Assembly: GCA_022792415.1 (NCBI GenBank)
Contig: JAAWAY010000211.1
Span: forward strand, 1-55,489
Source of the DNA: Eggerthellaceae bacterium
Lineage (GTDB): Bacteria > Actinomycetota > Coriobacteriia > Coriobacteriales > Eggerthellaceae
Direction of reading: 5' to 3'
Length of the DNA stretch: 55,489 nucleotides
Positions 1,061-55,489 of the stretch are shown here, in pieces. The notes under the pieces were generated by a model. The model was not told where the DNA came from. It worked only from the letters and a program-made list of their open reading frames with translations, and made no database searches. The position numbers and the translations under genes are program-made. Positions within the stretch are counted from its first letter, which is position 1; every line of letters begins with the position of its first letter.

Positions 1061-1074
1061 GAATTAACCTATGG

Positions 1075-1282: not shown

Positions 1283-1298
1283 AAGGATTGAAGCGATG
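1283..1298 (+). promoter_or_regulatory. Ribosome binding site and start of the giant gene
   Basis: AAGGA (1283-1287) lies 8 bases before ATG 1296-1298. An in-frame TAG at 1275-1277 bars any start further upstream, and the only alternative nearby, ATG 1416, lacks a comparable SD. A small hairpin CCCT-CAT-AGGG (1269-1279) ends just before the SD and could influence its access. Confidence 0.8.
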
Positions 1299-1502
1299 AG
1301 GCAGCAATTCGAGCAGTTCGAAGAGAAGACGCAGGGCGTGCCCGGCGGGGACGGCTACCAGCCGCCCGTCGAGGGTACCTCTGCCGGTATCGTGGCGACG
1401 ACGGCGCCGCGGCGGATGTCGCTCCCCAGGCGCATCCTGGCCGTGATGCTGTCGGTGTTGCTGGTGAGCACCATGTGGACCGACGCGTCCATTGCTGAGG
1501 CG
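1296..1502 (+). other. Signal peptide (residues 1-69) with extended N-region
   Basis: About 40 polar residues precede a basic patch (RRMSLPRR, residues 39-46), a hydrophobic core (residues 47-58) and a polar region ending in Ala-Glu-Ala (67-69), a good signal peptidase I site. Long N-regions occur in signal peptides of very large surface proteins. Starting at Met41 (ATG 1416) would leave a conventional 29-residue signal, but the SD favours Met1. Confidence 0.8.
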
Positions 1503-4500: not shown

Positions 4501-7500
4501 ACGCCGGCGGCACCATCCTGTACGGCGGCAGCACCCACATGTACTCGCGCATGAACGGCCCCACGGAGTACTACTTCTATCCTGACAATGTGCGTGGAAG
4601 CCAGTACAACGCCACGGTGGGCACGGGCACGGTCAACTCCATCCGCTCGCTCACGCTGCTCAAGACCAACCTGAACTGGGAGACCACCTACGAGCCCATC
4701 TCGAACAACGTGCTGTACGACCGCTACAACTACATGGTGTACAAGGTGACCACCACCAACACGTCCACCGGCTCGGCCGAGATCGACTCGCTCGAGTACT
4801 TCCTCACGGTGACCAACACCCAGCTCAACAACAACCAGGGCATCACGCCCCAGGACCTCATGCAGTGGAAGTACACCGGCGAGAACACCCCGCCCGAGAT
4901 CAACGACTCGTTCGACACGGGCGGTGACAGCGGCGGCACCACGTCCACGCAGTACGTGGGCGTGCCCAACCGCGGCGGCGTGCTCTTGTACGACACCACC
5001 GACTGGCTGCCTCAGGACTACGAGGCCCTGGACATGCGCACGTTTGGCAACCTCGACTCCATCATGGCGCGCGCCAACGCGCGTGATCGCATCTACACCG
5101 AGGTGAAGGACGATAAGGGCACCCTGCTCGGCTACACGCTGAGCTACGACGACTCCGGCGACAACGACGGGCAGATCTACGACTCGCCCGTCGACGACAA
5201 GGGCAATCCCATCCTCACCACCAAGTCGATGCCCTACGGCACCAACAACCAGTCGGGCCGCGTCGTCTTCACCGTGCCCGAGGACGAGGGCGGTCACCTG
5301 TACCCCAACGAGCGCGTGGCCAACGGCGGCAACGGCTCGTACACGTTCCTCATGGCCGTGCCGTTCACCACCAACATCCAGCAGTCGGTGGGCGCGCAGG
5401 GCCTGGGCTACTACGTCCACCTCAACCCGCAGACCACCATCCGCTTCGGCAAGCTGGGCGCGAGCAACTACTCCTGGTCGGACAGCGTCGGCCAGGTGCC
5501 GGCGGCCTTCGGCATCCCCGAGGCCACCATGAGCGCGGCCAAGAACGCCCTGGAGACCTACACGCGCGGCGCCAACAACGCCATTGTGGAGAAGGACCCC
5601 GAGCCGGTGATGACCACCACGTACAGCTACCTGGGCTACCCGGTGAGCTACGAGATCGGCGACTTCGCCACCAAGGGCAACATGCCGCTGTACGGCGAGA
5701 ACTCCAGCAGCGCCACGGCCGGCCCGGAGATCCTCGACAGCCTGCCGGACTACTTCCGCCTGTACAACCTGGAGTTCGAGGTGGAGGGCCCGCGTCCCAT
5801 CGAGGATGAGACGAACGAGATGGCCCCGCTGGCGCGCTACTTCGACACCAACACCGACGACTTCACCGACAGCCTGCTCGCCGTCAACAACGGCGACAGC
5901 TCGGTGGTGCAGCTGCAGGTGTCGTCCCCGGCCAACGACCCGGACAACCCGGATGCCGAGGACTACGACTGGGTGAACGTGGGCAAGCCCGTCTACGTGG
6001 AGACCAAGGAGAACACCAAGGCGGACGGCACGAAGTCCTATACACATATATATAGGTTGGGCGGCACCGACAAGAAGTCGAGCCTGGCCGCCAAGCTGGA
6101 GGCGCGCGGCATCGCGCCTTTGCCCGGCGTGGCCCCGGCCGTGAGCGAGGACGACGACAACACCGACAACTTCAAGTTCACCGGCGACATGCGCATCGTG
6201 TTCAGCACGCCCATCGAGGCCAACATCACGCTGCCTGTGAAGGTGAAGGTCACCGGCGTCATGGTCATCCCGCGCAACGACTACCGCAACACCATGGCGG
6301 TGAGCTACGGCAAGCGCATGTGGAACTACGCCGCGCAGAACTACTCGGCCAACCTGGAGAGCACCGAGCGCGTGATGGGCGCCTTCCTGCAGGCCAACCC
6401 GCCCGTGCCCACCGTGACGGCCACCGCCGTGGCCATGGCGGGCACGCTGTACGACGACAAGGCCGCCATTAGCGCCAACGATGGCACGAAGCAGCCCATC
6501 CTCAGCCGCGACGGCGCGGGCTGGCGCTTCACCATCAACAACACGAGCTACTCCAAGATGGAGCCGGCCACGTTCACCGTGGGCGATATGTACGGCTCCA
6601 CCGCGGCCGCCGGCTTCGACGTGGATCAGATCGGCATCAGCCAGGGCATCCTCAACTCGTCGGAGATCGCCAAGATCGTCATCAACTACCGCACCCGCCC
6701 GGGCACCGGCGGGGGCCTGCTCACCACCGAGCAGCGCACCATCGAGGGCTCCGAGCTGGCCGACCTGCTGGTGAGCCACGCCGCCGTCATCACCAACGCC
6801 GACGGCTCCACCACGCCCAACGGCGTGGTGCTCACGCCCGAGCTGTGGCAGGACGCGCTGGGCCAGCAGGGCTACTTCGTGTCGATGACCATCCACTTCG
6901 ACTCGTTCAACGGACGCCAGGGCATCAACGCCACCGAGAAGATGATGGTGGAGGTGCAGGGCTCGCCCGAGGAGCTGGACACCATGGCGCTCACGGGCAC
7001 GTTCACCACGGCCTACGAGCAGCTGCGCGCCGACCTGAGCCGCTACAACGCGTCGGCCCGCGCCACGGCGCAGTTCACGTCGCGCAAGGCCCCCTACAAC
7101 CTGCAGGTGACGGCCACCGGCATGCGCGAGAGCCAGACGCCGGGCGACCCCAACGCGCTCACGGGCAACTGGGAGTACATCCGCGACGACAACGGCAACA
7201 TCCAGTACGGAACCGACGGCAAGCCGCTCATCGAGAAGGACGACGCCCAGCAGGACGTCGTGTTCGAGGGCTACATCGGCGATCCCGGCACCGGCTGGCG
7301 CATCACCGTGTCCAACGACTCCAACTTCGCCATCGGCAGCGCCGTCATCAAGGGCGGCTGGGTGCTCAAGGAGTCCATGGGCCAGGGCAAGCCGGTGGAC
7401 AAGACCGACTCGGCCGACATGCGCATCCCCTACATGAAGGGCGGCCGCACCGACTACGAGGCCAAGTCCATCATCATCAGCCCCGCCCTGTGGCAGACCA

Positions 7501-10500
7501 CCCTCGAGGACAAGGTGGACGCCGAGGGCAACGTGGTGAAGGACGACAGCGGCAACGTGGTGAAGGAGCAGCGCCTGAAGGGCGGCGTGCTGTCCGACCT
7601 GCACCTGACCTACTGCCTGACCAGCGACACCAATGCCACCACCCCGACCGAGCATGACTTCGTCGTGGACGGCCTGCTGCTGCGCGCCGCCACCGGCACG
7701 CTCACCGACGCCGACAACAAGGCCATCGCCGCGGGCACCATCCCCGCGCCCACGGCCCAGCAGATCGCCGACGCGGGCATCAGCGTGACGGCCGACGGCT
7801 TCGTGGTGGTGTCGCTCGAGGACAACAAGGAGTGGCAGTCCACCTACTACCTGCGCGGCTTCGAGCAGTACTTCACCGACTTCGGCTACGGCCTGAAGCA
7901 GAGCGACAACGCCTACATGGACATCTCCGGCACCATCGTCAACCAGGACAAGATGGAAGTGGGCGCCACGTTCTCCACCGCCTACGCCAAGCCGTCGTGG
8001 GACACCGCCGTCGACTCCAAGGGCGTCGTGGACGGCAAGCCCTACCCGGCTGACGGCACGCCGCTGGTGGAGGCCATCGCCAACCTGGCCGGCGACGACA
8101 AGCCCGCCGACATCCACAGCACGAGCGGCCTGCGCACGCAGTCGACCACCGGCACCACGGTGACCGACGTGCTGGACACCAACGGCAACAAGGTGACGGT
8201 GCCCCAGCAGACGGCCTACTACGACTACGACTCGGGCTACAAGATCACCGTGGCCAACGACACGAAGTACGCCATGAGCCTGGGCGGCACGCTGACCATC
8301 GGCACGCTGCCCACCGACACGCTGACCGACGAGCGCGAGCGCTTCGACGGCACGACGGCCGTCGAGGAGTTCGTCGACTACGAGACGCACCAGCTGGTGC
8401 TGTCCGAGGCGCTGTTCAAGCCCGGCAACCGCGTGGCCGGCGACAAGCAGGCCGTCCACGCCGGCGACGTCATGGACGCCTACATCGAGTACTACGACAA
8501 GACCGACACCACCAACCCGCAGCTCAAGCGCATGCCGCTCAAGGACGTGGTCGAGTGGGTGTACGGCCACGGCATCGACGCCGAGGGCAAGGACGACGGC
8601 ACCGTCGTCACCAGCCTGCCCGACTGGGCCACGGCCAAGGTGACCGACGAGAAGGGCAACCCCACCAGCGCCGACGTGGTGTCGGTGGACGCCGACGGCA
8701 ACATCGTCATCGACTGGCAGGCCTGGGGCAAGGGCTTCTTGGTGAACGTGGTGGTGGACTACAGCAAGTTCAACGGCTGGGTCAACGCCAACACGGGCGC
8801 CTTCGTGGAGCTGCGCGGCAAGACGACCAACCGCGGCGTGTTCCAGATGAACGCCAAGTTCAAGACGAAGCAGGCCATCGAGGACTGGACGCGCTCATGG
8901 ACGAGCTCGGTGTCCCTCAACTCCATCCTGCCTCCCATCCGCCCCAACTCCGCCATCGGCGCGTACGGATCTGAGACCAACGCCAACCACCCGGCCGCCG
9001 TTGACGGGCAGATCCTCAAGCCCGGCACCGACGACCTGACCACCACGCACATCAACCAGGAGACCCTGTACGCCACCGGTACCGTGCGCGAGAAGAACGA
9101 GTTCGCCAAGAACTACTACAACCAGTACCCCGTGACGGCCCAGGAGATTCGCCTGGACAAGTCCATCGCGTACCGCGAGGAGCGCAACTCGGGCTACCGG
9201 GCCATCGTCACGAACAAGTCGGACTTCCCCATGTACCTGGGCGCCAAGCTGACCATCGGCAACCTCGTGCCGCGCTGGGACAGCTACGGCAAGGCGCTTG
9301 ATGAGACGCTGGGCTACCACACCACCGACCTGTCGCTGAGCGCGGGCCTGCTCGACCACAGCCAGATCGAGTACATCAAGGTGCGCTACGTGCCCGCGGG
9401 CATGAAGATGAAGTCCGGCAGCGGCTCGGGCGTGCTGACGGGCCTGCCCAACACCACTACCAACAGCTCCGTCCAGGTGGGCGGCAACCAGGCGCTCATC
9501 CCGGGCGGCCTGGAGGTGCGCCTCAACTGGGATACCGAGCTCAAGCCGTACTGGGATGCCGACGATGACGGCGTGCTGGACGGCACGTGGGACACCGACG
9601 GCGACGGCATCGCCGACAGCCCCAACCTGAGCCTGCCGGCCAGCCTGTGGCACAACGGCGACGCCTACTACTTCGAGATCCACTTCAAGCGCATCGACGC
9701 CAACCTGACCGAGGCCGACAAGGCCTGGGCCGACCTGTTCGGCTACGCCATCGACTCGTGCAACGTGTCGCTGGCCACCGACCCCTATCACGCCGAGTCG
9801 GACGACCCCAACCCCGTGGCCGACCAGTACGACATCCTGCACGTGGGCGAGACCCACGGCTGGGGCTGCCCGGGCGGCGGCTACAACGTGCAGCGCCGCT
9901 ACTACGGCTACAACGCCTACGTCGGCAACTACTACGTGACCATCCAGGCCGACAGCCGCCTGAAGGCCACCTACCCCGATTCCAGCTGGGACCTGCTGGG
10001 CAAGGCGTCCAAGACGAGCAAGGCCGGCGAGATCACGTTCTCGGATGACCAGGCCAACCTGTACGCCATCGCCGGCATGCCCGTGACGGGCGTGACGGCC
10101 GACGCCTATGCCGACAACACGAAGACGGCCGACCAGGCCATGGCGGCCAGCGGCATCAGCGGCAGCGGCGTGGCCACGCCGGCCAACTACGCCACGGGCG
10201 CCAAGGCGTTCTGGGGCGAGGACGGCGCGGGCTACCGCTTCCACATCGTCAACTCGGGCCGCAAGATGTTCGAGAGCGAGCTGCGCATCGGCACGAACTC
10301 GCAGAAGGTGTACACCGACCCCAAGGGCAACGAGACCACCAAGAGCAGCGAGCATCCCTACAACACCGAGATCGCCAACGAGGACGTTCCCGGCACCGAC
10401 GACGTCGAGGACTACGAGAACGCCAAGCGCGGCTACCAGACCAAGGCCGTCATGCTGTCGAAGGGCCTCATGGCCAGCACCGACATCACGAGCGTGGATG

Positions 10501-13500
10501 TCACGTTCTACCCGCAGGCCCCGGCCGGCACCGTGCCGTCCAAGCAGACGAAGAGCCTGGCCTACGACGACCTGCTGAGCGCCGGCTACGTCAACGCCGA
10601 CGGCAACATGGTCATCCCGTGGGACGAGTGGGGCCAGGGCTTCCTCACCAACGTGGTGGTCAAGTTTGACAGCATCGACGTCAACGCCGGCCTCATGGGC
10701 CGCACCATCCCGTCGGGCGCCGACGAGGCCACCGTCAACGGCATCATCCGCACGGGCGACTGCTACGTCGACCTGTGGGGCGAGGCCAACTCCGTCATGG
10801 ACATGCCGCTGTCCGCCTGGTTCGGCTGCAACTACGCCCAGGACGGCTGGCACTACCGCCTGGACGAGCCGCGCCAGCCCTACGGCGCCAACGTGGCCGG
10901 CTACGCCGAGTACGCGTGGGACGGCACGAACGAGGGCGTGTACGCCCACGGCACGTCCAACCGCTGGAAGGCCGGCTGGCCGAACGGCTGGACGCAGGGA
11001 ACCAACGCCGGCGGCATCTACAGCTGGGGTAACGGCTACACCCGCATCGGCGACTTCGTGAAGTACGGCTCGGACAACGGCACGGTGGGGCCGAACGACC
11101 TGCAGCATCCCGAGAGCTGGTATACCGCGGCGCGCGCCCCCATCTTCAAGCGCCTGATCGCCCAGTGGCAGAGCTACTGGCGCGGCGCCAACGTGTGGCA
11201 GTCCGGCGCGGCCACTGCGTGGATCTACGGCCGCCCCTACGAGGTGAACGAGCAGATCACCGCGCAGACGTTCATGCGCTCGACCGGTCCGGCGTCCGAC
11301 AGCGGCTACGGCGACACCGCCAGCGCCAACAACACGGGCACCGACCAGACCAACGGCAAGCTGCAGCGCAACAGCACGACGAACGCCTACTTCGAGGAGA
11401 CCGGCTCGGGCTTCCGCTTCACGCTGGCCAACGACACCGACTACCGCATGCGCAAGGCGTACTTCGCCACCGAGGCGCTGCCGTACCAGAAGTACGAGGG
11501 CAACCTGGTCAACTTCACCACGGAGTCCATCGTGCTGTCCAAGGGCCTGTTCAAGCAGGCGCAGCTGAAGGACCTCACGCTGTACTCCATGGCCTACGAT
11601 GCCGACGCCGACGCCACCACGCCGCAGACGACCGTGCTCGACGGTACCGACCTGCACGTGTTTGCCACCGACGCCACGGCGTCCGACCTGGTGGGCACCG
11701 AGGCGTGGTTCGACGACATCCAGATGGTGGACGGCGTGCTGACGGCCTACGACGCCGACGGCAACGTGACCATGTACCGCGACGCCGCGGGCAACGTGGT
11801 CATCAACAAAGCGCTGTGGGGCGGCCACTACTTCCTCAACCTGGAGACCCATATGCGCGACTTCGCGGCGCGCACCACCAACGCGAGCGGCGCCTTCATC
11901 GAGTTCTGGGGCACCGGCTCGTACCGCTGGCTTGAGCGCGACATGTACGCGACGTTCCGCACCGACTGGATCACCATGTGGTGGAACACCAACAACAAAG
12001 AGGACAGCGACCACGACAACTGCGACAACCACGGCACGCGCCTGCTCACCAACGACGCCAAGCGCGCGCTGACCACCGCCCCCAACGTGTCGGGCGGCTT
12101 CACGGGCACGTACTTCAAGGGCAACACGTACCTGCATGACTACACCTACGGCACCACCGAGTACCGCTACAACGTGTACAGCCAGGCCAAGGGCATCTCG
12201 GCCGCGCCCAGCAAGGCCACGTCGCTCAGCGGCAACGCCCCCTACACCACCACGGTGTCGGCGCGCCTGAACGTGGCCCTGCAGCCGGTGCGTCCCAACG
12301 TGGAGATGTGGGCCTACAAGGACGCCGCCCAGGCCAACCAGACGCACAGCCTGCTCACGGCCAAGTACGCCACCTCCGGCACCGCCAGCGCCGTGCCGTA
12401 CGTCACCACGCGCCGCTCGGCGGCGTGGGGTAGCGAGCCCAAGGCCTACTGGCAGGACGAGCACGTGGGCTACCGCGCGGTGGTCACCAACAACTCCATC
12501 TACGGCATGACCCACGGCGCGCGCATCACCATCGGCGACATCAACCCGGTGTCGGACACGGCCGCGCCCGCGCTGCTGCAGAACGCCGGCTTCCGCACCA
12601 CCAACCTCACGCTGTCGCGTGAGCTGTACGACGCCGGCCAGAAGCCGGTGGTGGACGATGAGGGCAAGCCGACGGGCGCCACGGAGAACACCATCAAGTC
12701 CATCACGCTGCGCTGGTACGTGCAGGGCGCCAAGGCCAACGTGCAGCGCCAGAGCACGACGTGGAACAAGAGCACCTACGACACGACGCGCACGCTCAAC
12801 ATCACCGGCACCTCCAGCCTGCTGGGCACGAAGGTGTACACCACCACCTACACCGGTGACCAGGTGGCCAAGTGGTTCACCGACGGCACCGACCTGACGC
12901 AGGATGTGGACCAGGGCGACGGCACCACCGCGACCGAGCCCGTGGAGGGCACCACCGACTACGTGCCCGGCGCGGGCGAGACCGTCACCACCATCGGCGG
13001 CATCAAGCGCAACAACGACGGCGACGTCACGCTGACGAGCGAGAAGTGGCTCGGCGGCGACCTGGCCGGCGTCATCATCGACTACGGCTACTTCCAGAAG
13101 GAGCTGACGGGCACCGACGCCTACGTCGACTTCTTCGGCTACACCATCGACTCGCCCGATGCCGACAAGCGCCGCGAGGTGACGGACACCTGGTGCATCA
13201 ACGACGGCTGGGAGGCCGACGACGGCTACGACGTGACGCAGTTCTGGGATTGGTACTACAACATCGTCAAGCTGCCCACGGAGTTCCGCACCACCTACAA
13301 GGTGCCCGAGTGGAACTATCTGTACAACGGGTCGGACTACGGCACGGGTCGCGTGCCCAACCAGTACAACGCCTACACGGCCAACAAGTTCAGCGAGCTG
13401 ACCAACACGCGCGACTGGGGCGAGCTGTACGCGCACACCCCCGCGTCCAGCCAGAAGGTGACGGCCAAGAGCTACTTCGTGGACGCCGCCACCCCCATGG

Positions 13501-16500
13501 GCAGCGTGGGCACCATCCTGAGCGTGGGCAACACCGGCAACGACTCCACCACCGCGTACTTCCGCTACTACGGCGCGGGCTGGCGCTTCGGCTACACCAA
13601 CTACGCCAACCCCACGGTGGTGCAGGCCAACAACAACTACCCGAGCCTCACGGGCGGCAAGAGCACGTGGGATCCGGACTCCTACGTGTACGACCGCGAC
13701 TACGAGATGTTCGACAGCACCATCACCGTGGGCGTCATGCCCGCCGAGAAGGTGCCGGACGGCACGGCCGCCAACACCGTGGACGAGCGTGACGACTACG
13801 ACAACGCCTGGCGCTCGTTCGACGCGCGCTACCTGAGCCTGTCCGTGGGCCTGCTCGACGCGGCTACGTGGAGCAAGCTGGGCACCACGCGCGGCAACGC
13901 CGTGAAGACCATCACCATCGAGGCCTACCCGCGTCCTGCCGCCGACGGCGACGGTGACGACGATGCGACGGGCGGGGATGACCCCGACCCCGACCCAGGG
14001 GTGACGGTCACCACCGAAACCCTGGCCGACGGCACCGTGCAGGAGACGACCACCCGCGCCGACGGCACCACAGTGGTCAAGCGCACCGCCACCGACGGGA
14101 CGGTGACCATGGCGTACACCTACACGCTGGCCACCGCCGCGTCCTACGCCAAGGCCGCGGGCGCCGGCTATGACGCCGACAACAACCTGGCACTGCCGAG
14201 CGCGCTGTGGGAGGACGGCTACTTCACCAAGCTGACCGTGGAGCTGGCGCACTTCAACGCCGGCGTGAACGAGGATGACGACGCCGCCATCGACGTGCTG
14301 GGCCGCACGGACGTGTCCCAGAAGAACATCACGCTGACGTCCAACTTCAACACGAGCTACGGCAAGAACCCCTCCATCGACGGGTTCACCACCCCGGCGG
14401 AGTGGGATCACCGCGACGACCGCTACGGCCGCTGGGGCAACGCCATCAACACCGGCTCGGCCCAGACCGTGCAGGCCGACAGCGACGGCACGCGCAACAA
14501 CCATGTGAACCGCGCGCTCACGCTGGACAAGAACGGCAACCAGGCACTGCCCTTCAAGACGCTGGGAAGCACCCTGTACGGCTACAGCTACCTCAACCGC
14601 TCCAACGGCATGGACATCGAGGACAAGGCCACCCTGGTGAGTCAGATCGACCCCATCAAGCCCGACGTGCTGGGCGAGACGTTCCTGGGCGCCCCGCGCC
14701 CCGGCACCGACCGCGACGCCCTGGCATGGGACGGCAGCGAGAAGGAAGAGGACCCGGGCAAGTACTACGCCGACAAGGAGCTGGAGACCCTCATGGGCTC
14801 GCCCACGTCCGGCTGGCGCCTGAGCCTGACCAACACGTCCAACTACAGCATGGACCACGCGCGCCTGAGCGTGGGCCCCATCTACTCCGAGTACGTGGAC
14901 GGCGTGTGGCGCGGCTTCGACGTGGAGAACCTGTACCTGAGCACCGACGCCCTGGCAGCGGTGCTGGCCGGCAAGATCGCCGAGAAGAACGGCTACGACT
15001 TCGGTGACAACCTGGAAGCCATCGGCGGCTACGACGTCCAGACGTTCGCCAAGGCCAAGACCGAGTTCGCCAAGCTGAGCGTCGATGACGTGAAGGCGAT
15101 GCTGGCCGGCTACACGGTGGACCTGTACGCCGTGGACCGCAGCGACAAGACGGTCATCGCCGACCCGAACGCCGCGCGTCCCACCGCCAAGACGCCCACG
15201 ACGCCCAGCGTCACGCTCAACCTGGCCGACTACGTGGTGGAAGAGGACATCTACGTCGGCGACACCGACACGCCCACGGGCAATAAGCGCATCGTGCTCA
15301 ACATCCCGTCCGACGCGTGGAACGGCGCCGACGACTACCTGCTGAAGGCCGTGTACCACCTGCCCGGCTTCGCGTCCAACGTGCCCGGGTTCACCACCGA
15401 CGACACCCCGTCGAAGAACCCCTTCGGCAACGACGTGTACCTGGACGTGTACGGCGCTCCCACGCGCGCTACCACCATGCGCCTGAACGCCACGCTCAGC
15501 ACCGAGTACAAGACGGAGAGCTGGAACCAGAACACCTCCACGCGCACCACCGACACCGACTACTCGACCATGCTGCCCCTGACGGCCGAGCCGGCCATCC
15601 GCACCACGTTCAACTGGACGGGCGGCGAGTCCAACGAGAGCCACCTGGGCGTCACCATGGTGGAGCGCGGCTACACCGATTCCGACGGCAACTCCACCGA
15701 CCGCAACACCTACAATGCCACCACCAGCTACGTGCCCTACCGCTGGGGCGAGGGCCCGCTGGTGGACGCCAACGACCCCACCACCGAGACCGAGTGGGCG
15801 TGGTACGAGTACATCCTGGAGAACGCCACGCGCTCCACGGCCGAGAACGGCTACTACGACCTGGTGCTGAACAACGCGTCGGGCACCGCCGCCGATCCGC
15901 GCGGGTTCGTGCCCAAGCGCCTGGAGATCGACGGCTACCAGCGCTACTCCACCGAGGGCCGTCGCCCCGTGCTGACCAAGGACGACTTCGCCGCCAACCC
16001 CAACGTGCCCTACACGTGGGGCAACCGCGCCGGCACCATCGGCGAGCTGTGGATCTTCGGCGCCAACCAGACGGTGTACCACGACAACGACGACCACACC
16101 ATCGCCGAGGCCACGCCCATGGCCAAGATCCCGCTGACGAACGACTTCCTGGAGCAGTACCTGGGCAACACCGTCAAGGGCGAGCAGGGCACGCTCATCC
16201 TGCCGCTGGACGAGGCCACCCTCACGCCGTACCTCACCCCGGGCGCCACGCTGGCCCCCATCGGCACCGTGCGCCTGGTGTACAACAGCATGGCCGCCAA
16301 CCTGGTGTGGAACGCCGACGAGAGCAAGGACACGTCGTTCACGGCGCGCCTGTACGGCGACGTGCGCACCCACGGCGTGCGCAGCTCGGTGACCGACCAG
16401 ACCAGCTGGTCCAACCAGATGTCGTCCACCACGGCGTACTTCCCGCTGTCGTCCTACTACGGCAACATCAACCGCACCACCGAGTGCAAGGTGAACATCG

Positions 16501-19500
16501 CCAGCTACTACGCCACCACCACGTCCACGGCGTTCAAGGGCGCCAACGTGCGCCCCAACGCGGGCACGGCGGCCAGCAACTCCACCATCGAGGACGTGCA
16601 GGCCACCACCACCAACGGCGGCACGCGCCAGCCCCTGGTGGCCGTGGATGACGGCAACTACCCCTACATCCGCAACAACAAGAGCATCGCCGACGGCGCC
16701 CGCGCCGTGGTGGAGGTGGCCAACAAGGCCGACGAGTCGGGCTACAGCTTCACGTACCGCAACTCCACGCGTGCCCGCTCCGACGAGGCCACCATCACCA
16801 TGCGCATCGACTCGGTGTCGATGAAGGCGCGCCAGATGCTGACGGGCGCCTACAGCGACGACGCCGACCTGGACACCAACGGCTACTTCATCAACCGCGG
16901 CGTCGTGCGCGGGTTCCAGACCAAGACGCTCGACTTCAGCTCGGCGCTCTTGGCCATGGGCAAGCTGGAGAACGCGGAGCTGACGTTCCTGCAGCCCAAC
17001 GGCGCCAAGTTCACGCTGCGCCTGAGCCCCGCCTTCCTGAGCGGCGCCGGCATCAAGAACCCCAACGGCAGCTACACCATCGACTTCGCCCGCACGTGGG
17101 GCACCACGCTCGTGCGCGACCTGGTGACGTCCACCGACCTGGCGGGCAGCAGCTGGGGCACCACGCTGGCCACCGACTGGACGGCCACGCCCTACACCAT
17201 CGCCGACTGCTACCTGTACCAGGTTGACCTCAACTACGCCTCGCTCGAGCCCAGCTGGCGCCCGACCAACCAGCTGGAGAAGGCTGACGCCGCGGCTGAC
17301 GCCAAGGGCTACCTGACGGTGAAGGCCACGGGCAAGACCGACTGGTACAACGCCGAGGGCAACGTCGACACCAACAAGCACACGCACAACGGCGTGACGC
17401 AGGACCGCTGCCAGTCGCAGTACTTCACCACGTACTACAGCAACGGCACGCGCTACAACAACTACTACCCGCACAACAACACGCTGCACACCTCGCTGCA
17501 CCTCACCCAGAAGGGCGTCAACGACACGCGCGCCCTGGTGGAGAAGTGCGCTGCCATCTCGGTGCCGCGCCCGCGCATGGAGGTGCACAGCTACATCCAG
17601 TACGGCCAGGCCGACTACACCGAGCAGAGCCGCTCCGATTCCAGCAACACCGATGGCAACCGCACCGAGGTGACGGTGCCCTACGCCAAGACGTTCAGCT
17701 TCCGCGCGCAGCTGCGCAACGAGCCGCGCTCGGGTGACAAGGCGTACTCCAAGCTGGACGACGTGGACGTGACCATCAGCTACCCGCTGGAGTTCGAGGC
17801 CAACATCCTGTCGAGCGGCGGCACCAGCAACAACAAGATGAGCACGTGGACGGGCTTCCACCCCATCCAGACCACCATCTCGGGCTCGTTCATCAAGACG
17901 TTCGCCAACTATGACGGCGTCATCCCCGGCACGGGGCCGCAGTACGGCTCCACCGTGGGCAAGATCCGCATCTACGGCTACACCAAGGCCAACGTCACCA
18001 ACGCCAAGAACCTCTCCTCCGACCCGAACTACGCCCAGAGCAAGATCGTCCTCAAGCCCTACTTCGACGCCACCACCGGCGCGCTGCTGGGCTGGGAGGC
18101 CGAGAAGGTGGCCTCCGGCGCCACCGTCGGCGTGGGCACCAAGTTCCCGCTCGAGCCGGTTTCCGGCGACTTCGTCCTGTCCGAGGATGACGTCTACGAG
18201 ATGGGCATCGAGATCCCCACGACGTTCCAGCTGCTGTCCTGGAAGGCCATGAATGAGGATCCGTGGAACTACGCTGACCAGAACATCGTGGTGCAGGGCT
18301 ACACCGACACCTACTTCGAGCGCCAGCGCACCATCCGCGTGACCACCCAGAACCACCTGGACGGGTTCCGCGAGAGCCCGCTCGACCTGCCGCTGTTCAC
18401 GTCGGGCCAGCCGCTCGTGACGGGCAGCGTGTACGGCAACGCCAACACCGTGGCCGACAACTACATCGTGTCCTACACCGACAGCTCGCTGTACTTCGTG
18501 TCCAAGATGTACTACGACGCCGTGAGCCGCGCCGCCTACGCCGACGTGGTGAGCGGCCAGGCCGTCGTGGACAAGAACGATCAGGATTCCAACAAGCCGC
18601 CGGTGGAGCAGGCCGAGGGCAAGCGCTACGAGCTGGCCGCCGACGGCGACGCCACCGTCGACACGCTGTACCGCTTCGTCGAGAGCAAGGTGTCCAACGG
18701 CTACACCGCCATCCCGGCCGACCAGCTGGGCAGCTACGTGTACGGCGATGACGTGGCCGAGGCTGGCCGCACCAAGGTGTACTTCCTGCAGCCCGCCGAG
18801 CCGGGCGTGGAGGGATCCGTCGACCGCTACGTGGAGGTGACGCTCAACGCGGCCGCCGACGGCAACGGCTACACGTACTCCATCGGCAACGTCACGCTGC
18901 CCGCCACCGGGCTCACGTTCTACACCTATGACGCCGCGCTCATCTCCGACGGCTACGAGGTGGTGCCCTCGGGCAGCATCGCCAGCTACCTGACCAACGG
19001 CGAGCAGCTGTTCGCCGCGACGGCGGACGGCTACGACCCGGTGAAGCTGGTGAAGGGCGAGACCCAGGAGGACGGCTCGTACGACATCACCTACTGGGTG
19101 ATGGGCGACACGCTGGAGAACGCCAGCGACGCCGAGAAGGCCACGGCCAAGTGGATCCTGCGCAACGGCAACTACGACATCACGGTGACCTACGCCGTGA
19201 GCGACCCCGAGAAGGACTCGTCGGGCAACATCATCACGGCCGCGGTGCCCAAGGACTACGTGGTCAGCGTCACCGAGGACCAGGCGCCCACCGCGGAGAC
19301 CCGCGGCAAGGTGACCGTGGTGGTGTCGCTGGGCACCACCGAGGAGCAGCCCAAGACCGACCCGATGGACGACTTCGTCGGCCTGACCGAGGCGGCTGCC
19401 CGTGCCGGCATCAACGCGCTGACCGACTACGAGGTGCAGGCTGACGTCAAGTACGAGTACAGCAGCACGGTGCCCCAGGGCAACGTCATCGCCATCACCA

Positions 19501-40500: not shown

Positions 40501-43500
40501 AGCGCCAGAACAAGCTGGCCCTGGGCTACGTCGACGGCACCAAGGGCTACCTGGGCAACAACGTCTGGAACGACGAGAACTACGACGGCATCCAGCAGGC
40601 CCACGAGCAGGGCGTCGGCCAGGGCATGCAGGACGGCGGCGTCAAGGTGAAGATGGAGACGTGGTACTACGCGCCCGTCAGCTTCAGCGTGACGTCCGTG
40701 CCCAAGACCGACGAGAGCGGCAACCCCGTCTACGAGCTGGACGAGGAGGGCAACCCGCGCCTCGATCCCGACACGCGCCTGCCCATCCCCGTCATGGAGG
40801 ACAAGGTGGAGGCCAGCGACGAGTACGCCTGGCAGCTCTACCCCGGCGAGGACCTGCGCGAGGCGTGGACCGGTGACGCGGCCAGCGCCGGCGTGTACCT
40901 GTTCCGCGACGTGAGCACGTACATGATCGACCCGCGCGACACCCGCGATTTGGAGGACGACTACAAGACCAAGCGCCTGGCGGGCTACCGCCTGCGCATC
41001 GACGCCGAGGACCTGGCCAACCTGGACGAGGACTTCGCCATCACGCTGCGCGACGCCACCTACACCGACGTCGACGGCAACAAGGGCCAGTCCATCGACT
41101 CCGATTCGGACCTGATGACCAAGCCCGTGGAGACCTCGGTGCTGCGCCAGGCCGGCGGCGACCAGAACATCGACGGCACCAACGCCACCAACGAGACCGT
41201 GCTCACCTACTACCTGAACGAGAAGGGCTCCCAGCATGAGAGCGGCTCGTTCGAGGACGAGTACATCGTCATCGCGGCGGTGGGCCAGCACACGTCCAAC
41301 CCGACGCCGTTCACCGAGCTGCGCGAGGGCCAGACCCACCAGCAGGTGACCTACACCACGACGTACCGCAACGAGACCGACAAGGCCCAGACCGTGACGC
41401 TGCGCGATCCCTACCCGACGGGTGAGGACGTGACCGTGGTGGCCGGCAGCGCGTACTGCGACTACGCCGGAGCCACGCTCAACACCAACGCCGCGGACGG
41501 CGAGGGCAAGCCGGTGGTGGAGTGGTCCAACATCAAGCTGAACCCCGGCGACTCCGTCACCATCAAGGTCACCTACGACTTCACCGTCACCAAGACGGTC
41601 GTCCACGCGGTCACCGTGCTGGGCGGCGAGGACGGCGAGATCGAGACGAACCCCGTCAGCCACAAGGTGAACCGCAACATCGAGGCCCTGCGCCCGACGC
41701 TGCCCAGCTACATGGGCACCTCGCGCGAGGACCAGTTCATCCGCGTGTACGACGACACCACCGGCCAGCTGGTGGAGACGAAGGTGCCCGACATCCCCGT
41801 GCCGTCTGTCACGGGCAAGAGCTACGCCGAGGCCGAGGCGGCCATCCAGGCCGCGGGCCTCACCGTGGGCCGCGTCACCGCGTCGCTCACGCCGGGCACG
41901 CCGGGCACGGTGGCCAGCCAGCAGGCCGAGGCCGGCGCGATGAAGTTCGCGGGCGCGCCCATCAACCTGGTGGTGTACGGCTACAACCCGTCCACCGGCG
42001 CCACGTTCGGCCACGTGCCGACGCTCTATGACTCCACCGACGCCGTGGAGGCCGCGCTCGACACGCTGTACAACGACGTCAGCAGCCTGCTGACCGCCAT
42101 CCCGACCGAGCCCAAGGTGCCGCCGACGCCCGAGTCGCTCGACCCCGACAGCTCGGCGTACCTGTGGTCGAAGTTCCTGCCGAACGACAAGACGGTGGAG
42201 ACCGCCACGGCCGAGGAGAAGGCCCAGGCCGAGCAGGAGGCCGAGGCCACCTGGCGCGCCGACTGGTACACGTTCCTCACCGAGTGGTACAACGTGCTGG
42301 GCTTCAGCTACTACAGCGTGGAGGGCAAGCTCATCAACCCCGATCCGTCCCGCAACCCCGCGGCTGACGAGGCCAAGGGCCAGTACAACCAGCCCTACCG
42401 CCAGAACAACATCCTCATCGCCAGCCACACGACCGACGGTGACAGCGGCACGCTGGAGGTCGGCAAGGACCTGAAGGCGGGCTGGGCCGAGTACAAGGCC
42501 GCCTACTACGGCACGCCCGGCCATGTCTACGCCCTGTCCGGCGACGGCGCCATCTACGAGGACACCATCGACGAGGCGGCGTTCGACGGCTTCAAGGGCA
42601 TCTACGACAAGCTGAAGGCCGACTTCGACCTGGCCACGGCCGAGTACGAGAAGGCCCTGGCCGTGTACAACGTGCTCAACAACGAGTACACCAACTACAA
42701 GGCCGACTACCGCTACTACCTGGCCGAGAAGACCGACTACGAGTCCGAGGAGGACTACGGCTCCGGCAAGATGATGAACGGCCGCCCGGTGCAGGGCGCC
42801 GACCCCGACGGCGTCATCTACGACCTGGGCGACGCCGCCCGCCTGTACAACTGGGATGCCGGCCTGGTCATCGTGCCGCGTTCCACCATCAAGGGCCACG
42901 TGTGGGATGACTCCTACCACGGCACGCCTGAGGGCGCCGACGAGGCGACCCTGCGCGAGCGCGCCTACAACGGCATCCAGGACGGCGCCGTCACCGTCAC
43001 CGACGACGAGGGCACCGAGACCGTGGTGGCCGAGGCCGAGCCCGGCCTGGCCGACCAGGTGCTGTACCTGACCCAGTGGTACTACGCTCCCTTCGCCGAC
43101 CTGTCCGGCAAGGGCGATGACTTCTACTTCTCCACGAAGGACTGGGACGCCCTGTCCGACGCCGAGAAGCAGGCCGCGCTGGCCACCGCCGGCGTGACCG
43201 ACGAGCACACCGACGCCGACTGGGAGCTGGCCTCCGACGGGTCGGGCCTGTGGGTGCGCAGCCTCACGTTCGGCACCGACAAGCTCACCGGCAAGTGGAA
43301 GCGCGAGATCGTGCCCGCCGTGGACGAGTTCGGCAACGCCATCTTCAAGGAGGACGGCACGCAGGACACCATGCGCGTCGAGACGCTGACCGGCCCGCGC
43401 TCCACCGGCTCGTGGCAGGTGGAGGACAAGCAGGGCGTCATCGCCGTGTACTCCGACGGCGTCAAGACCACCGAGACGCCGCGCGTGGACGACGACGGCA

Positions 43501-46500
43501 ACCCGGTGACCGACGACGAGGGCAACCCCGTGGTGGACGTGACCTACGACGCCTCCACCGTGGGCGACTACGCCTTCGACAACCTGCCCTCGGCCTACAC
43601 CGCCGCGGACGGCAGCCACTACCTGGCGTCGTACCGCGTGGAGCTGGGCGAGTTCAACCAGGTCGACACCCGCGGCGACGAGCAGAGCACGTCCGACGAC
43701 GAGCAGTGGCTGCTCACGCGCTACCACGAGGGCACCGACATCCTGGCCGACTCCGACGCCAAGAGCGACATCGGCGTGGGCGGCGGCGTGGCCTTCACGG
43801 CCCAGGACCAGGTGGTCACGCTGGACGGCGCCAGCCATGACGGCATCCGCGCCCACAGCGGCCACGTCATCGTGGCCGGCGTGCGCAACGACACTGCCAA
43901 CTCCAACGTCGATCCCAACACCACGGCCATCGGCCTGCACTCGTCCAAGGTGACCATCCCGCTGGCCGACGTGCTGGCTGGCGCGGCCGCCCCGGGCGCG
44001 CCCACCGGCGGCCTGCTGGTGGACGAGTCCGCCTACATCACCTACGACTGGCTGACCTACCGCCAGACGGTCGACGAGAACGGCAACGTGGTCAAGGACG
44101 AGAACGGCAACCCCGTGCAGGAGGTGCTGGGCGGCGACGCCGGCCAGGTGCAGCCTCCCACGCAGTCCATCACCGGCGTGGTGTGGAACGACGCCGACAA
44201 CGACGGCATGCGCGGCGTGAAGGGCGCTGACGGCGCCTGGAGCGGCCTGGCCGACGGCGAGGAGTACCTGGAGGGCGTGCAGCTGACGCTGGAGCGCTAC
44301 TACCAGGTGGCCGACGACCCGCAGGCCGAGTGGACCTACGACCCGACGTGGGCCGGCAACGACGCGGCCTACCAGGCCGACCCGACCGTGGGCCTGACCG
44401 GCGACAACCACTACGGCGCCACGCCGGCGCCCGTGACGCCCGACCCCGACGATGACGACGACCCGGCCGCCCAGGCCGACGAGGACGAGGGCGACGAGCC
44501 CGAGGCCCCGGCCGAGGACGAGCGCCGCACCGAGGGTCACAACACGTGGACGCTGGCCGACGGCACGTACCGCTTCGACAACCTGAAGACCCAGGGCTAC
44601 CTGATGGTGCCCGTGGCCTCCGCCGACGACGCCGAGGGCGACGAGCCCGCGGCCCAGGACGGCGACGAGGCGCCCGCCACCGAGCGCAAGCGCGTCATCT
44701 TCGGCTACAAGGTGCGCGTGACCGACGCCGACTGGTGGAACCGCTACTGGGGCACCGCCAAGTACCTGCAGGGCGACAGCTACGCGCTGGCGTCGCAGGA
44801 CTGGACGGCTGACTCCGACCTCATCCACGCCGACGGCTACCTCATGGCCGCCGCCGAGGGCGAGGGCGTGCCGGAGGAGGTGACGGTGCTGCTGGACGTG
44901 GCCACCGGATCCTCGCCGACCATCAACGACGCCACGGTGGGCAACGCCAACAACGCCAACGGCAACACGGGCGACCGCTACGGCGCCAACGGCCGCTACG
45001 GCACGACGCCGCGCGACGGCGTGGCCGCCGTGGTGCCCGACGTGCTGACGAGCAACGCGGCCGCGGCCGCCGGCGAGGCCTTCGCGCCCGCCGTCACCTA
45101 CGACATGGCCCGCGGCGCCGACCGCGCCGGCAACGACGCCGGCCTGCGCGAGCCCGCCTTCGAGGACATCGAGGGCATCGTGTGGCACGACGCCGACTAC
45201 GACGGCCTGTACGAGCCCGACGACGTGACGGACGAGAACGGCGACGTCGCGGCCGGCGAGCAGGGCCTGGCCGGCAAGCGCGTCACGCTGAAGCAGTGGT
45301 TCTGGGCGCCCGTGGCCATCGAGGCCGAGGGCGGCGACGAGGGTGACGAGCCCGAGGCCGGCGACGACGCCGATGCCGACGAGCCCGCCGCCACCGGCGC
45401 GCAGGTGCTCGACCCGGCCACGCTCGACGCGGCCGACGAGGGCGTGACCTATGAGTGGAAGTGGGTGCTGAACGAGGACTTCGGCGCTGACAACTACACG
45501 CAGGCCATCGGGGCCACCGCCCCGGGCGACGCCGCGCTGCCCCACGGGCTCACGGCCGCCATCCCCCATGCTACCCATGATGCCACGCTGGGCGCCATCT
45601 GGACGCTCACCGAGGCAGCGGGCACCGACACGGTGCTGGGCCGTTACGCCTTCGGCACGCTGCCCACCCGCTACGTGCTCGACCGCCGCGCCGACGGCGC
45701 GGACACGAGCCGCCCGGCGCCCGAGTTCCTGGCCGGCTACACCATCGAGGTGCTCGGCGGGTCCGAGGACGCCGACCCGCAGGCCATCGCCGGCCTGCCG
45801 GCCACGCTGCTGCAGCAGGGCAGCCTGGCCACCGACGACATCAACTCCAACGCCGTGAGCGCCCTGGCCGCCAAGGCCGACGGGCAGAACTTCAGCGACT
45901 ACCTGGACGGCAACTACCCGGTGCGCTGGAACGAGCTGACGACGCAGAACACCGACGAGCAGGGCGCCACCACCAAGGCCACGCTCGACGGCAAGCTCAT
46001 CCTGGCCTCCCAGGCCCTGGCGCAGCCCGCCGAGGACGGCGCCGAGGCCACCCGCGACGCCGCCGCCGGCACGCGCACCGCCGCTGCCAGCGCCGCCGCC
46101 CGCGGCACCCAGGGCCAGTACTACGTGCGCGAGGTGCGCGCGGCCGACGCGGCCGGCTCGGCCGCCGGCGCCACCGTGCCCGCCGACGAGGACGCCACCG
46201 TGGTGTTCGACTTCTCGCGCGGCCAGTCCGACCGCCGCATGAACGCCGGCTTCGGCGAGTACGGCTACACCACCGTGTCCGGCAAGCTGTGGCAGGACCA
46301 GAACTTCGACGGCATCCTCAACCCGGGCGAGGTGCTCATCCCGCACGGCACGCTGTCCATCACCCAGTGGTTCTACGTGGGCGACGCCGCTGAGGGCGGC
46401 CGCTACTTCGACCTGGTGAACGCCCTGGAGGCCGACGCCGACAACTTCGAGGTGCAGCGCGTGACCAACACGATCACCCGCAACGCCGACAACACGCCCA

Positions 46501-49500
46501 AGGACACCGAGGCGGGCGCCTGGGTGCGCGTCAAGGGCACCGACGCCTCCGGCGCGGCCCTGGCCAACCCCAAGTCCACGTTCCTGGCCCGCACTGACCT
46601 GACCACCACCACCGACCCGGCCACGGGCGCCTACGCGTTCCCGCGCCTGCCGAGCTTCCTGTACCTGATGGTGGAGCGCGACGAGGACGGCGCCATCACG
46701 GGCGTGAGCCGCGTGCTGCAGCCCAACGACGCCGACCTGACCGGCGCCGACGAGGCCGACGCCGTGGCGCTCGACGAGCTGTTCCTGGCCGGCTACCGCA
46801 TCACCATGGGCGATGTGGCGCCCGACTACTCCCTGACCACGGCCCATGTGGGCATCAACGTGGGCAAGAAGCAGCTGGGCGACCTGACGGCCATCACCGT
46901 GCCGGGCTCCAGCCTGGAGGACTCCGACTCCGACGCCGTGCGCGGCGAGGATCGCGTCATCCAGGTGGTGCAGGAGTACTTCGACAACTCCTTCGACAAG
47001 CTGGAGGGCGACGCGGCCAACGGCGTGCCGTCCGACCCGCGCGACCATGAGAACCTGGGCGCGGCCAGCAACTGGCGCACCGACGGCTACGTCATCGTGG
47101 CCGACCGCGGCAACGCGGCCAACGCCTACCAGTACGAGGACATCTACAACTCCGTCGCCTACGACGTGCCGCGCCCGATGGGCGTGCAGCGCGGCGGCGA
47201 TGTGGGCCTCATCAAGATCCCGCGCACCAGCCTGACCGGGCGTGTGTGGGACGACACCGGCGTCAAGGGCGCCGACGGCAGCTACGACTACGCCACCGGC
47301 TACAACGGCGTGCAGGACGAGGGCGAGGCCGGCATCCCGGGCCAGACCGTCTACCTGACGCAGTGGTACTGGCTGCCCGACGCCGTGGCTACCGACGGCC
47401 AGACCGGCACGGGCCGCTGGGTGCGCAACACCGCGTTCGGCAGCGACACCTACACGTCCAACCTGCGCTCGAAGGCCGACGGCGAGAAGACCGCGCCCTA
47501 CGCCACCGACCGCGCCACGGGCCGCGTGCTGGAGTACCAGTCCACCGACGCCGCCGGCAACGACACGTCGGGCGGCATCCTGAAGGTGGTCACCGACGCC
47601 GACGGCCAGTGGACCGTCGACGGCCTGCCCACCGTGTACGTGACCGAGGACGACACCTACTACCTGGCCGCCTACCGCGTGGAGCTGGCCGACCTGTACA
47701 GCGAGCCCGGCGCCAACGCGGCCGACGGCTCCACCAACTACTGGTCGCTCACCCGCTACCACGACGACAGCACGGCCGACGACCACAAGGCCGAGCTGGC
47801 CACCGTCAACGGCAACGTGTCGGTCGTGTCCGACTCGGACGTGGCCAACGCCGTGCGCACCGACGGCACCGACGGCACCGCGGGCGGCATGGTCATCGCC
47901 AGCCGCGTGGGCGCCGCCACCGCCGGCGACGCGTCCGACGGCAGCGACGATGCCACCGGCGACGCGGCCACCGACCCGAGCCGCACCACCCGCAGCCACG
48001 ACGGCCAGATCATCCTGGCCGCCAAGGCGGCGGACGCCAACAACGCCAACGCCTACGTCACCCTGCCCGCGGGCGAGGGCATGGGCCCCGGCGTGGAGAC
48101 CTACGACTGGATCGCCGAGCCGGCCACGTTCGTCGGCGACGACGGCCAGGAGCTGACCGTCCCGGCCGAGGCCGGCGACGTGGGCCAGGTGAAGACGTCG
48201 CTGCAGAGCATCGGCGGCATCATCTGGAACGACAAGAACAACGACGGCCTGCAGGGCGACTACGTCGACGAGGCGGGCGCCACGGTGGCCGAGCCGGGCA
48301 TCGAGGGCATCCGCATCGCGCTCGAGCGCTACACCCTGACGGCCACCCAGCAGGCGGACGGCTCGTTCGCCGTGGCCGACGACGCCCAGTGGACGCGCGA
48401 CGCCGCATGGGCCGACTGGGCCGCCTACGACGCCGACCCCGTGGCCGGCCTGGCCAAGGGCGCCCAGAGCCGCGAGACGGCCACCGACGCCGACGGCGCC
48501 TTCGCCTTCGGCGACCTGCCGAGCCACCAGTACGTGCCCGGCGCCACCCGCGAGGTCACCGAGACCATCATCGTGGGCGAGGGCGACGACGCCCATGAGG
48601 AGACCGTCACCCGCGTGGAGCACGACCCGGCCACCGTGGTGCTGTACGGCTACCGCTTGCGCGTCATCGACCAGCGCTTCTGGGAGCGTGACCTGGGCAC
48701 GGCCAAGTACCTGCAGGACAGCGACTACGCCATCGACTCCGATCTGGTGTACGCCGACGGCTACCTGATGGCGCCCGGCGAGTACGACGTGCTGCTCAAC
48801 GTGGTGGAGGCCGACAACGCCCCGCTGACCAACCAGCTGGCCGCCCCCACCGCCAAGAACGAGAACCTCAACGGCGCCGACCGCTACGCCGTGGACGCCA
48901 CCGTCGTCGACGCCGCCACCGGCGCCGTGACCTCGGGCGCCTACGCGGCCGCCTCCGGCGTCACCCGCAACCTGCTGACCACGGGCCACGAGACCGCCAA
49001 CGAGCGCACCGACTCGGGCAAGCTGTCCGGCGCGGGCCTCAAGGACTCCGCCGCGGACGCCGACGGCGCGGTGTTCGGCCGCACGGCCGGCACCACGCTG
49101 GTGTACGACCTGGCCCTGGGCGCCGACCGCTTCGACAACGACGGCGGCCTGCGCGAGCCCGTGTCCAACGCCATCGGCGGCGTCGTGTTCAACGACACCG
49201 ACTACGACGGCACGCTCAACCGCGTCGTCACCGCCGAGGACGGCACCACGACCACGGACATCGAGCCCGGCTACGTGGGCAAGAAGGTCATCCTGAAGCA
49301 GTGGTGGTGGAACGGCACCGAGTGGGTGCAGAACACCTCCTTCGGCAACGACTTCTACACCTGGGCCGCCAACAACGCCGGCGTCAAGGCCAACCCCGAG
49401 GCCACGGTCATCCCGGACGCCACGTTCGACCGCGACCTGGGCGGCGTGTGGCTGCTCACCCAGCCCGCGGCGGCCGACGGCTCCACGCCGGCCGGTTACT

Positions 49501-52500
49501 ACGCCTTCGAGAACCTGCCCGCCCGCTACACCGCGGTGCGCGCCGCCGACGGCGGCGTGACCGGCGCGGCCACCGAGTACCTGGCCGGCTACACCGTGGA
49601 GGTGCTGGGCATCGAGGGCGCCGCCGACACGCCCGCCATGGCCATGAACGGCCTGCCGGCCACGCGCCTGCAGGTGAACGCCGACGGCGACGAGAGCTGG
49701 GCCATCGACCCGGCGACCGACCCCGTCAACTCCAACGCGGCCAGCGCGCTCAAGAACACCGACGACGCCTACGCCGCCGGCAACTACCCCGTGCGCTGGA
49801 ACGAGCACACCACCCAGGCCGAGGCCACGGCGGCCGGCGCGACCGAGCCGTTCGCCAAGGCCACGCTGGAGGGCAAGATCGTCCTGGCCGCGCCCGTGGC
49901 CGCCGACGACGCCTCCGGCAACGGCGCCACGCAGGGCCAGTACCGCGTCAACGCCACCGGCCACGCCACGGCCGACGCCGCGGACGCCACCGTGCCCGTG
50001 AGCTTCGATCTGTCGGTCGGCCGCGACCAGCTGGCCATGAACGCCGGCTTCGGCCTGTTCGGCACGACGTCGGTGTCCGGCCGCGTGTGGGAGGACACCA
50101 ACTACAACGGCATCTTCGACGGCGCCACCGTGGACGCCCAGGGCACCACCATCGCGGGCGAGCCCGTGGTGGACGGCAAGATCGTCACGCTGACCCAGTG
50201 GTACTTCGTGGCCGACGCCGACGGCGCCAACGACACGTTCGAGGCCGCCGACGGCGAGCTGGTGGCCACCGGCGCCGCCCAGCGCGTCGTCGAGGCCGAC
50301 GGCGCCGTCATCGGCGCCTGGGTGCAGGTGCCCGGCTTCGTCCAGACCAAGACGACCGGCGCCGACGGCGACCCGGGCCACTACCGCTTCGACGGCCTGA
50401 CCGGCTTCGTGTACGTGGAGGCCGAGGGCGGCACCAACGTCGTGCACCAGCCCGGCGCCCAGGCGGGCACCGATCCGCTGGAGAACGAGCACGCCGTGTC
50501 GGCCGACAAGCTGTACCTGGTGAGCTACCGCCTGGTGCTGACCGAGGTGGCGCCTGAGTTCTCGCTCACGCGTCCCTCCGTGGGCATCAAGGTGGAGACG
50601 GCCACGGCCTCCGCCCCGGCGGCCGACGGCACCGTCACCGTCAACCGCACCGAGAAGCCCGCCGCCCGCCCGTCGCAGCCCGACGGCACGGACGGCAAGG
50701 GCAGTGCCGTGGCCGACGGCACGCTCGGCCGCGAGGACCTGGACTCCGACGCGGTCCGCGACCCGGTCACCGGCGCCATCGAGATCCGCGAGGAGTACTT
50801 CGACGGCGTCCAGAGCCAGTGGCGCACCGACGGGCACGTGCTCGTGTCCGACCACGCCACGGCGCGCGACGGCCACCAGTACCCGCAGGCGTACGGATCC
50901 GGCGCGTCCGGGTCGGTCACCTACGACATGCCCGACCCGATGGGCACCCAGCGCGGCGGCGACGTGGGCCTGTTCCGCGTGCCTCGCAGCTCCATCACCG
51001 GCCTGCTGTGGAACGACGCGTTCTTCGGCAGCGCCGACGCGCGCACCTACAACGGCGTCCGCGACACCGCCACGACCATGCTGCCCGACGGCACCGCGGC
51101 CGTGGAGGAGGAGCCCGGCATCGCCGGCGAGGCCATCCTCATCACCCAGTGGTACTGGAACGGCACCGCGTGGGTGCAGAACACCCAGTTCGGCGCCGAC
51201 CGCTACACGTCCAACCGCGACGACGAGAACCGCGACGCGGCCGACCCGGTGGAGCCCATCCTCTACGACGGCAACACCAAGGACGCCGCCGCGGGCAACG
51301 CCACGGGCGACGTGCTGGGCTACGTGTACGCCACCGCCGACGGCAGCGTGGTGGACGACAAGGGCACGCTGCACACCGCGGCCACGCCCGGCGCCACCCG
51401 CGTGGAGGGCGTGCTCGCGCTCACCACGGCCGCCGACGGCACCTACTACTTCGACAACCTGCCGACGGCCTACGTGTCCGACGATGACCAGCACTACCTG
51501 GCGGCCTACCGCCTGGAGCTGGCCGACGTGGAGCACCAGGACAACACCGACGGCTCCGACAACCAGTGGCTGCTCACCCGCTACCACACCGACGAGACGA
51601 CCGACCGCGACCTCGACTCCGACGCGGCCGACGTGACGGCCAAGGGCATCGCCGGCGGCATCGTCATCGGCGGCAGCTACGCCGAGGGCGGCATCCAGAC
51701 GCGCGCCAACGACGGCCAGGTCATCCTGGCGGCCCAGCGCACGCTGCCGGCCGGCGCCATCGTCAACGGCGACGCGGCCGTGAGCCTGCCCGCGGGCGAG
51801 GCCATGGACACCCAGCGCGGCCGCGTGTACGACTGGACGAGCGCGGCGGTGGGCACCGACGTCTTCGGCAACGAGGGCGTGGCCACCGTGCGCGGCGGCG
51901 ACGTGGGCGAGACCCAGGCCCCCGTCCAGAAGATCACGGGCCAGCTGTGGTTCGACGACTCCAACGACGGCATCCGCGACGCGGCTGAGGACGTGGCCGC
52001 CGGCCTGGACGTCACGCTGGAGCGCTACTTCATGACCGTCATCCCCAACGGTGACGGCACGTTCACGCTGCCCGCCGACGCCGCGTGGAAGCGCGACGAC
52101 GAGTGGAACGCCGCCGACGGCGCCAAGTCGGCGTGGGCGAGCGCCGCCCAGTGGGCCGCCTACGACGCCGACCCGGCCGTGGGCCTGGGCGACGACAACC
52201 CGGCCGGCTCGGCCAGCGCCGACGACGAGGCTGTGCCGCGCACGGTCAAGACCGACGAGAACGGCACCTACACGTTCCCCAACCTCATGAGCCAGGAGCG
52301 CGTGGGCGACGTGCTGGTCATCTACGCCTACAAGGCCCGCGTCACCGACCTGGATTGGTGGAACCGCTACTACGGCACCGCCAAGCTCAAGGAGGGCGCC
52401 GACCGCGACGTCGACTCCGACCTGGTGTACGCCGACGGCTACCTCATGGCCGCCGACGAGTACGACGTGCTGCTGCAGCAAAGCGACGGCAAGTGCTCGC

Positions 52501-55489: not shown

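Follow-up and report, generated by a model that had tools for sequence, protein, structure and literature searches.

A giant gene of an Eggerthellaceae bacterium belongs to a conserved family of putative sortase-anchored surface fibres

The 55,489-nt stretch of Eggerthellaceae DNA analysed here (the window) carries a gene that runs off its end and is real, intact, large and conserved; it is neither an artefact nor a new kind of gene. We consider it quite likely that its product is a surface fibre of ~22,200 residues, exported by Sec and anchored by sortase, that serves in long-range attachment. New is the family around it: homologues are present in 18 of 138 Eggerthellaceae genomes, and their module order is kept nearly one-to-one across genera while length varies. 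Also new are poly-G tracts enriched at the starts of giant genes, which suggest phase variation in some members. The intact frame, its conservation, the module order, the anchor motif and the sortase-family genes were all observed in the sequence data. Coordinates of the features are listed in Table 1.

The window spans contig C138 of a 2.39-Mb MAG from end to end. The earlier note had described a single frame of at least 18,064 codons, still open at the window end and preceded by a promoter, a Shine-Dalgarno sequence and an upstream in-frame stop, with a signal peptide, and this description held. The + strand frame contained zero internal stops, and its codon-position GC was 0.61/0.46/0.98 (positions 1/2/3). 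Third-position GC was 0.94-0.99 in each 3-kb bin, which marks the frame as coding. Long antisense frames arise because the third codon positions are GC-rich, and one such frame (20472-55145, - strand, 11,557 codons) was rejected as a gene on the grounds that it is a by-product. The Nei-Gojobori dN/dS of ~0.7 is untrustworthy at a third-position GC of 0.98 and carries no reading on selection. The promoter, AAGGA and ATG are kept in two same-genus relatives, A. faecimuris (G058) and Enterorhabdus sp. P55 (G059), and the Shine-Dalgarno sequence sits in a block conserved in relatives, AAGGATTGAAGCGATG. The signal peptide ends ...LPRRILAVMLSVLLVSTMWTDASIAEA, directly followed by R, and the SIAEA-R motif is common to relatives G058, G059, G133, G078 and G136.

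Table 1. Features of the window, with positions counted from its first nucleotide.
Feature	Position	Strand	Basis or remark
Poly-G tract G10	242..251	+	~1.05 kb before start codon, upstream of promoter
Sigma-70-type promoter TTGGCT-17 nt-TACAAT	1032..1060	+	Read from sequence
5' leader, ~230 nt	1061..1295	+	Folds better than its shuffles, z -3.6
Conserved 25-nt element TATGCCCAWARGTGGAAATCGGGGC	1081..1105	+	Genome search
Upstream in-frame stop TAG	1275..1277	+	Read from sequence; stop-to-stop frame opens at 1278
Shine-Dalgarno AAGGA	1283..1287	+	Read from sequence; 8 nt ahead of ATG 1296
Giant ORF	1296..55487	+	ORF calling, codon-position GC, alignment to complete orthologue; runs off contig
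Signal peptide region, residues 35-69	1398..1502	+	Conserved SIAEA-R cleavage-site motif
10 Ig-like N-terminal modules, residues 1719-5372, ~240 residues each	6450..17411	+	Iterated HMM, AlphaFold, structure matches
PASTA domain	19365..19496	+	Pfam PF03793, E 2.7e-6
Most conserved central core, residues 8841-10363	27816..32384	+	Sequence comparison
14 of ~28 SdrD_B-like stalk units, residues 13077-18060	40524..55475	+	Iterated HMM; Pfam PF17210 above cut-off
PASTA domain	41796..41978	+	Pfam PF03793, E 2.7e-9

The source MAG consists of 234 contigs and is an estimated 77% complete; such fragmentation would favour an assembly artefact or several genes fused by sequencing error. Against this, window residues 36-18064 (18,029 residues) aligned with the complete protein of A. 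faecimuris JBNU-10 in one piece of 18,513 columns at 68.2% identity. JBNU-10 is an isolate of the same genus, assembled independently of the MAG, and its complete ORF spans 22,237 codons between stops, or 22,203 residues counted from the conserved ATG. Such a match would be broken by a hidden frameshift or a chimera, and both were therefore ruled out; the earlier note had named these artefacts as grounds for refutation. The second same-genus relative, P55, carries a frame of similar length (22,527 codons), and intact homologues of 20,000-35,000 codons occur in three more genera. We regard an artefactual frame as highly improbable.

The 3' end of the gene appears to lie on contig C88 of the same MAG, which opens within a frame of 1,861 codons. 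This frame closes with LPQTGDSDLMMKCLGLAGLAALLVLLLAWRRREEEE and a short acidic tail, comprising LPQTGD, a membrane helix and RRR. Residue 1 of C88 corresponds to A. faecimuris residue 20439, and C88 covers A. faecimuris 20439-22237 with 64-82% identity in two main segments; in both, a gene named purL from its sequence follows downstream on the minus strand. The window end corresponds to A. faecimuris residue 18175, leaving an unassembled interval of ~2,263 codons. No direct overlap of C138 with C88 or with C81 (see below) was found, and a search of the MAG contigs for a filler of this gap (~2,260 codons) returned only paralogous units of C138, C88 and C81. It is this colinearity and the shared purL, rather than assembled sequence, that assign C88 to the window gene. 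The projected length is 18,064 + ~2,260 + 1,861, or ~22,200 residues, from a gene of ~66 kb. The A. faecimuris protein has a mass of 2.40 MDa and a pI of 4.4, and the product of the window gene would likewise be ~2.4 MDa, acidic and almost cysteine-free. The window protein is rich in D, T, N and G and poor in K, R and C (D 9.5, T 9.8, N 5.5, K 3.3, R 4.1, C 0.25%).

An LPxTG-type anchor beyond the contig end, which the earlier note had suggested looking for, was thus located as the LPQTGD of C88, an assignment made by colinearity and synteny. LPXTG-type C-termini were also found in G058, G059, G001, G133, G136, G135 and the paralogue on C81. The MAG has matches to PF04203 (sortase family), one of them above the curated cut-off, and all eight relatives tested (8/8) have matches above it. 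Signal peptide, LPXTG, membrane helix, positive tail and a sortase-family gene in the genome together make the product a predicted sortase substrate. The long member of another MAG (G078, L073-L077, C5:257123-337354) showed no LPXTG motif within its last 1,500 residues; a frameshift close to the end and a different anchor are candidate explanations.

The N-terminal modules are clearly of the beta-sandwich class in the AlphaFold model of a module pair (mean pLDDT 88), and no specific relationship is assignable. In VIA-align comparisons they matched the pilin domains of BcpA and EbpB (Z 8.0-8.2, 2.8-3.1 A, 122-131 residues), where a Z near 8 is about the level expected from the common beta-sandwich arrangement alone. 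Across both modules, the pair matched integrin alpha chains, AgI/II C-terminal regions and PrgB with Z 8.6-10.9 and rmsd >7 A. In the MSCRAMM N2-N3 test, the SdrD A-region (4je0_B, 10pa), FnBPA and ClfB were among the Foldseek matches, with TM below 0.25. The central core was modelled with low confidence (pLDDT 62); Foldseek on this model gave no significant match, and no solved relative was found by sequence. Most of the N-terminal 13,000 residues were without a match in Pfam and NCBIfam scans. Stalk units matched PF17210 (SdrD_B) with 35.2 and 31.5 bits in window pieces and 68.8 bits in C88, where further such units lie (curated cut-off 29.7), and they weakly matched the solved S. aureus SdrD (E 4e-4).

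Searches with the central core found homologues in 5 of 48 Eggerthellaceae genera, none with internal stops, and a broader sample of 299 genomes from the order (107 genera) confined them to the same five. In 13 of the 18 genomes one or more long members were found (18,000-35,000 codons), and 11 of these 13 also have a short one (~8,000-13,000 codons). The Slackia-like genomes G135 and G136 showed long members only; in G009, G079, G087, G089 and G134 only short or contig-truncated members were seen. The source MAG has a complete short paralogue on C81 (L009-L011, C81:6859-44181; 12,440 codons stop to stop), which terminates in LPQTGD and is homologous over most of the window protein. Distant matches (27% identity) occurred in Massiliimalia timonensis, Faecalibacillus faecis and Ruminococcus callidus, and the phage collection searched contained no homologue.

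Seven long members were sampled for module content with the iterated HMM; C-terminal unit boundaries are fragmentary, and counts are good to ~1-2. The number of N-modules was 10, 10, 10, 10, 10, 11 and 13, and that of stalk units 28, 28, 28, 28, 27, 28 and 30, across total lengths of 22,237 to 34,927 codons. Best hits of the N-modules increased along the chain at 9/9 steps in all six comparisons, and those of the stalk units at 22 to 26 of 27 steps. Such ordered, unit-by-unit matches mean that the units possess individual identity, and length differences arise mainly by growth within and between units. That ~38 modules are retained nearly one-to-one across genera speaks against the usual picture of long adhesins as repeats that expand freely.

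The earlier note was right in predicting one very large secreted polypeptide and in the promoter, ribosome-binding site and signal peptide that it read; its view that the combination of modules is unusual was not supported. Other Eggerthellaceae have homologues built in the same way, and Toh et al. (2013) had reported two giant LPXTG genes of ~74 kb in A. equolifaciens, AEQU_0093 and AEQU_1251 (74,766 and 74,247 nt; PMC3778203), so that the window gene belongs to a known kind. The A. equolifaciens giants share with it the bacterial family, a single frame of tens of kb, a C-terminal LPXTG and a surface-protein composition, rich in D/E/T/S/N and poor in K/R/C, that is a described signature of giant surface proteins (PMC3778203). 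The window gene differs in that it is from another species and is shorter (~22,200 codons projected), and Toh et al. offered no analysis of domains, modules or family (PMC3778203). Shorter homologues of the A. equolifaciens giants are present in subsp. celatus (PMC8142583), and the giants are absent from strain 68-1-3 (PMC4599084). In A. equolifaciens DFI.6.87 (G002), which is not the type strain, we found homologues of the window ORF of 24,860 and 20,475 codons, whose best core segments match it at 63% and 59% identity. Several Eggerthellaceae homologues exceed the window gene, the largest being ORFs of 34,927 codons in Slackia sp. ZJ119 (G135) and 30,639 codons in G136, a single-contig assembly. 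Proteins longer than that of the window are also found in Chlorobium and Omnitrophota.

Staphylococcal SdrD and other MSCRAMM proteins resemble the window protein in their SdrD_B-type stalk units and sortase anchor. The window protein is more than 10 times longer than SdrD, has ~28 divergent units versus a few, and adds ten Ig-like N-modules and a conserved core whose fold modelling did not resolve. Mobiluncus mulieris has a giant adhesin of 7,651 residues with 51 Ig-like domains (PMC10619420), and Apilactobacillus kunkeei has the proteins Giant1-5 (PMC12863079). These, too, are very large, multi-domain surface proteins of Gram-positive bacteria, and they are shorter than the window protein by a factor of ~3 or more. 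A literature search, covering few subscription journals and preprints, returned no paper on this family, its module order or its poly-G tracts. With this analysis, one of the larger surface proteins of bacteria is assigned to a conserved family. Because some type strains in culture have members of it (A. muris DSM 29508, A. mucosicola DSM 19490 and Parvibacter caecicola DSM 22242), transcription, translation and export of a 2-4 MDa chain can be tested in the laboratory.

In the proposed mechanism, for which export, anchoring, fibre shape and adhesive function are what we infer, the long N-terminal extension and signal peptide would guide the chain into the Sec pathway. Sortase would cut at the LPQTGD end, with its membrane helix and positive tail, and link the chain to the cell wall. 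The ~10 Ig-like modules, which resemble those of Gram-positive pilins and adhesins, would form the outward part, and the ~28 SdrD_B-like units may act as a stiff spacer, with the conserved central core between the two. The most likely job of such a fibre would be to attach a gut bacterium over a long range to its host, to mucus or food, or to other cells.

The chain might also be made as one polypeptide and then processed into shorter, non-covalently attached surface proteins, or it might serve mainly as a surface coat or a barrier against phages or predators instead of as an adhesin. That Pfam and NCBIfam scans of the window protein identified no ligand-binding domain fits such readings, and the central core, as the most conserved part, is compatible with a processing or assembly domain. 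The Pfam scans contained no protease domain, however, and the C-terminal anchor implies that the N-terminal half faces outward; we judge processing or a coat role unlikely. Very large bacterial proteins are mostly NRPS or PKS (PMC11573180), which raises the question of a peptide synthetase or similar modular enzyme. No enzymatic domain was found in the Pfam scans, and a signal peptide, an LPXTG anchor and a surface-protein composition are present, so that a synthetase is scarcely conceivable and an anchored surface fibre remains the preferred reading.

Three genomes each contain a single copy of the 25-nt element of the window leader, always ahead of this gene (control 0). An Rfam search of the leader gave no match and no riboswitch; in seven flanking loci from relatives, the only hits were tRNAs and a single AdoCbl-II riboswitch. 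It is plausible that the leader is gene-specific and regulatory.

Some giant genes of other genomes carry poly-G tracts near their 5' ends. Between -500 and +400 of the start of the stop-to-stop frame, 11 coding-strand tracts of at least 8 G were counted in 8 of the 28 giant ORFs sampled at their 5' ends, versus 0.2 expected from the background rate and 1.1 from Markov-1 simulations (maximum 5 of 200); this zone was picked after the first tracts had been seen, which somewhat flatters the significance. No C tracts occurred in the same zone of the 28 ORFs, and 117 other ORFs of the same sequences, used as control, gave 2 G and 4 C tracts in 98 kb. The runs comprised 8-13 G, with lengths taken from single assemblies, in which homopolymers are error-prone: L051:10143-10155 (G135:C39), L170 (G089:C45), L172 (G133:C2), L175 (G003:C7), L174 (G001:C1), L039 (G058:C1) and L059 (G059:C261). 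In G133 and the short member of A. mucosicola (G003), the tract lies in frame between ATG and signal peptide in an identical context (CGCTCAT-G9-T). In the long member of G135 and the short member of G089, an upstream coding frame stops shortly past the tract and the giant frame continues in another register. The tracts of G058 and G059 sit in the leader or upstream of the promoter.

The positions in G003, G133, G135 and G089 match the usual anatomy of slipped-strand phase variation and suggest, from sequence, that some members are phase-variable. We give about even chances to the fuller reading that some Eggerthellaceae giants are phase-variable fibres, in which G8-13 near the start switches by slippage and ~10 N-modules and 28 stalk units stay near-constant across genera. 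If so, a costly product of 10,000-35,000 residues would be made by only part of the population, and the tracts, if confirmed, would explain how such a cost is carried. Only the fixed-module part of this reading applies to the window gene, since its leader has GCGGGATGC where its two nearest relatives carry G8-G10. The G10 tract of the window was rejected as a switch of the gene because it lies upstream of the promoter, probably outside the transcription unit. Separately, a tract of 21 G (L182:119-139) was observed on contig C132 of the source MAG (G000), ~200 bases before an apparent gene for a twin-arginine-exported reductase; it is a possible switch, or else a contig-end artefact.
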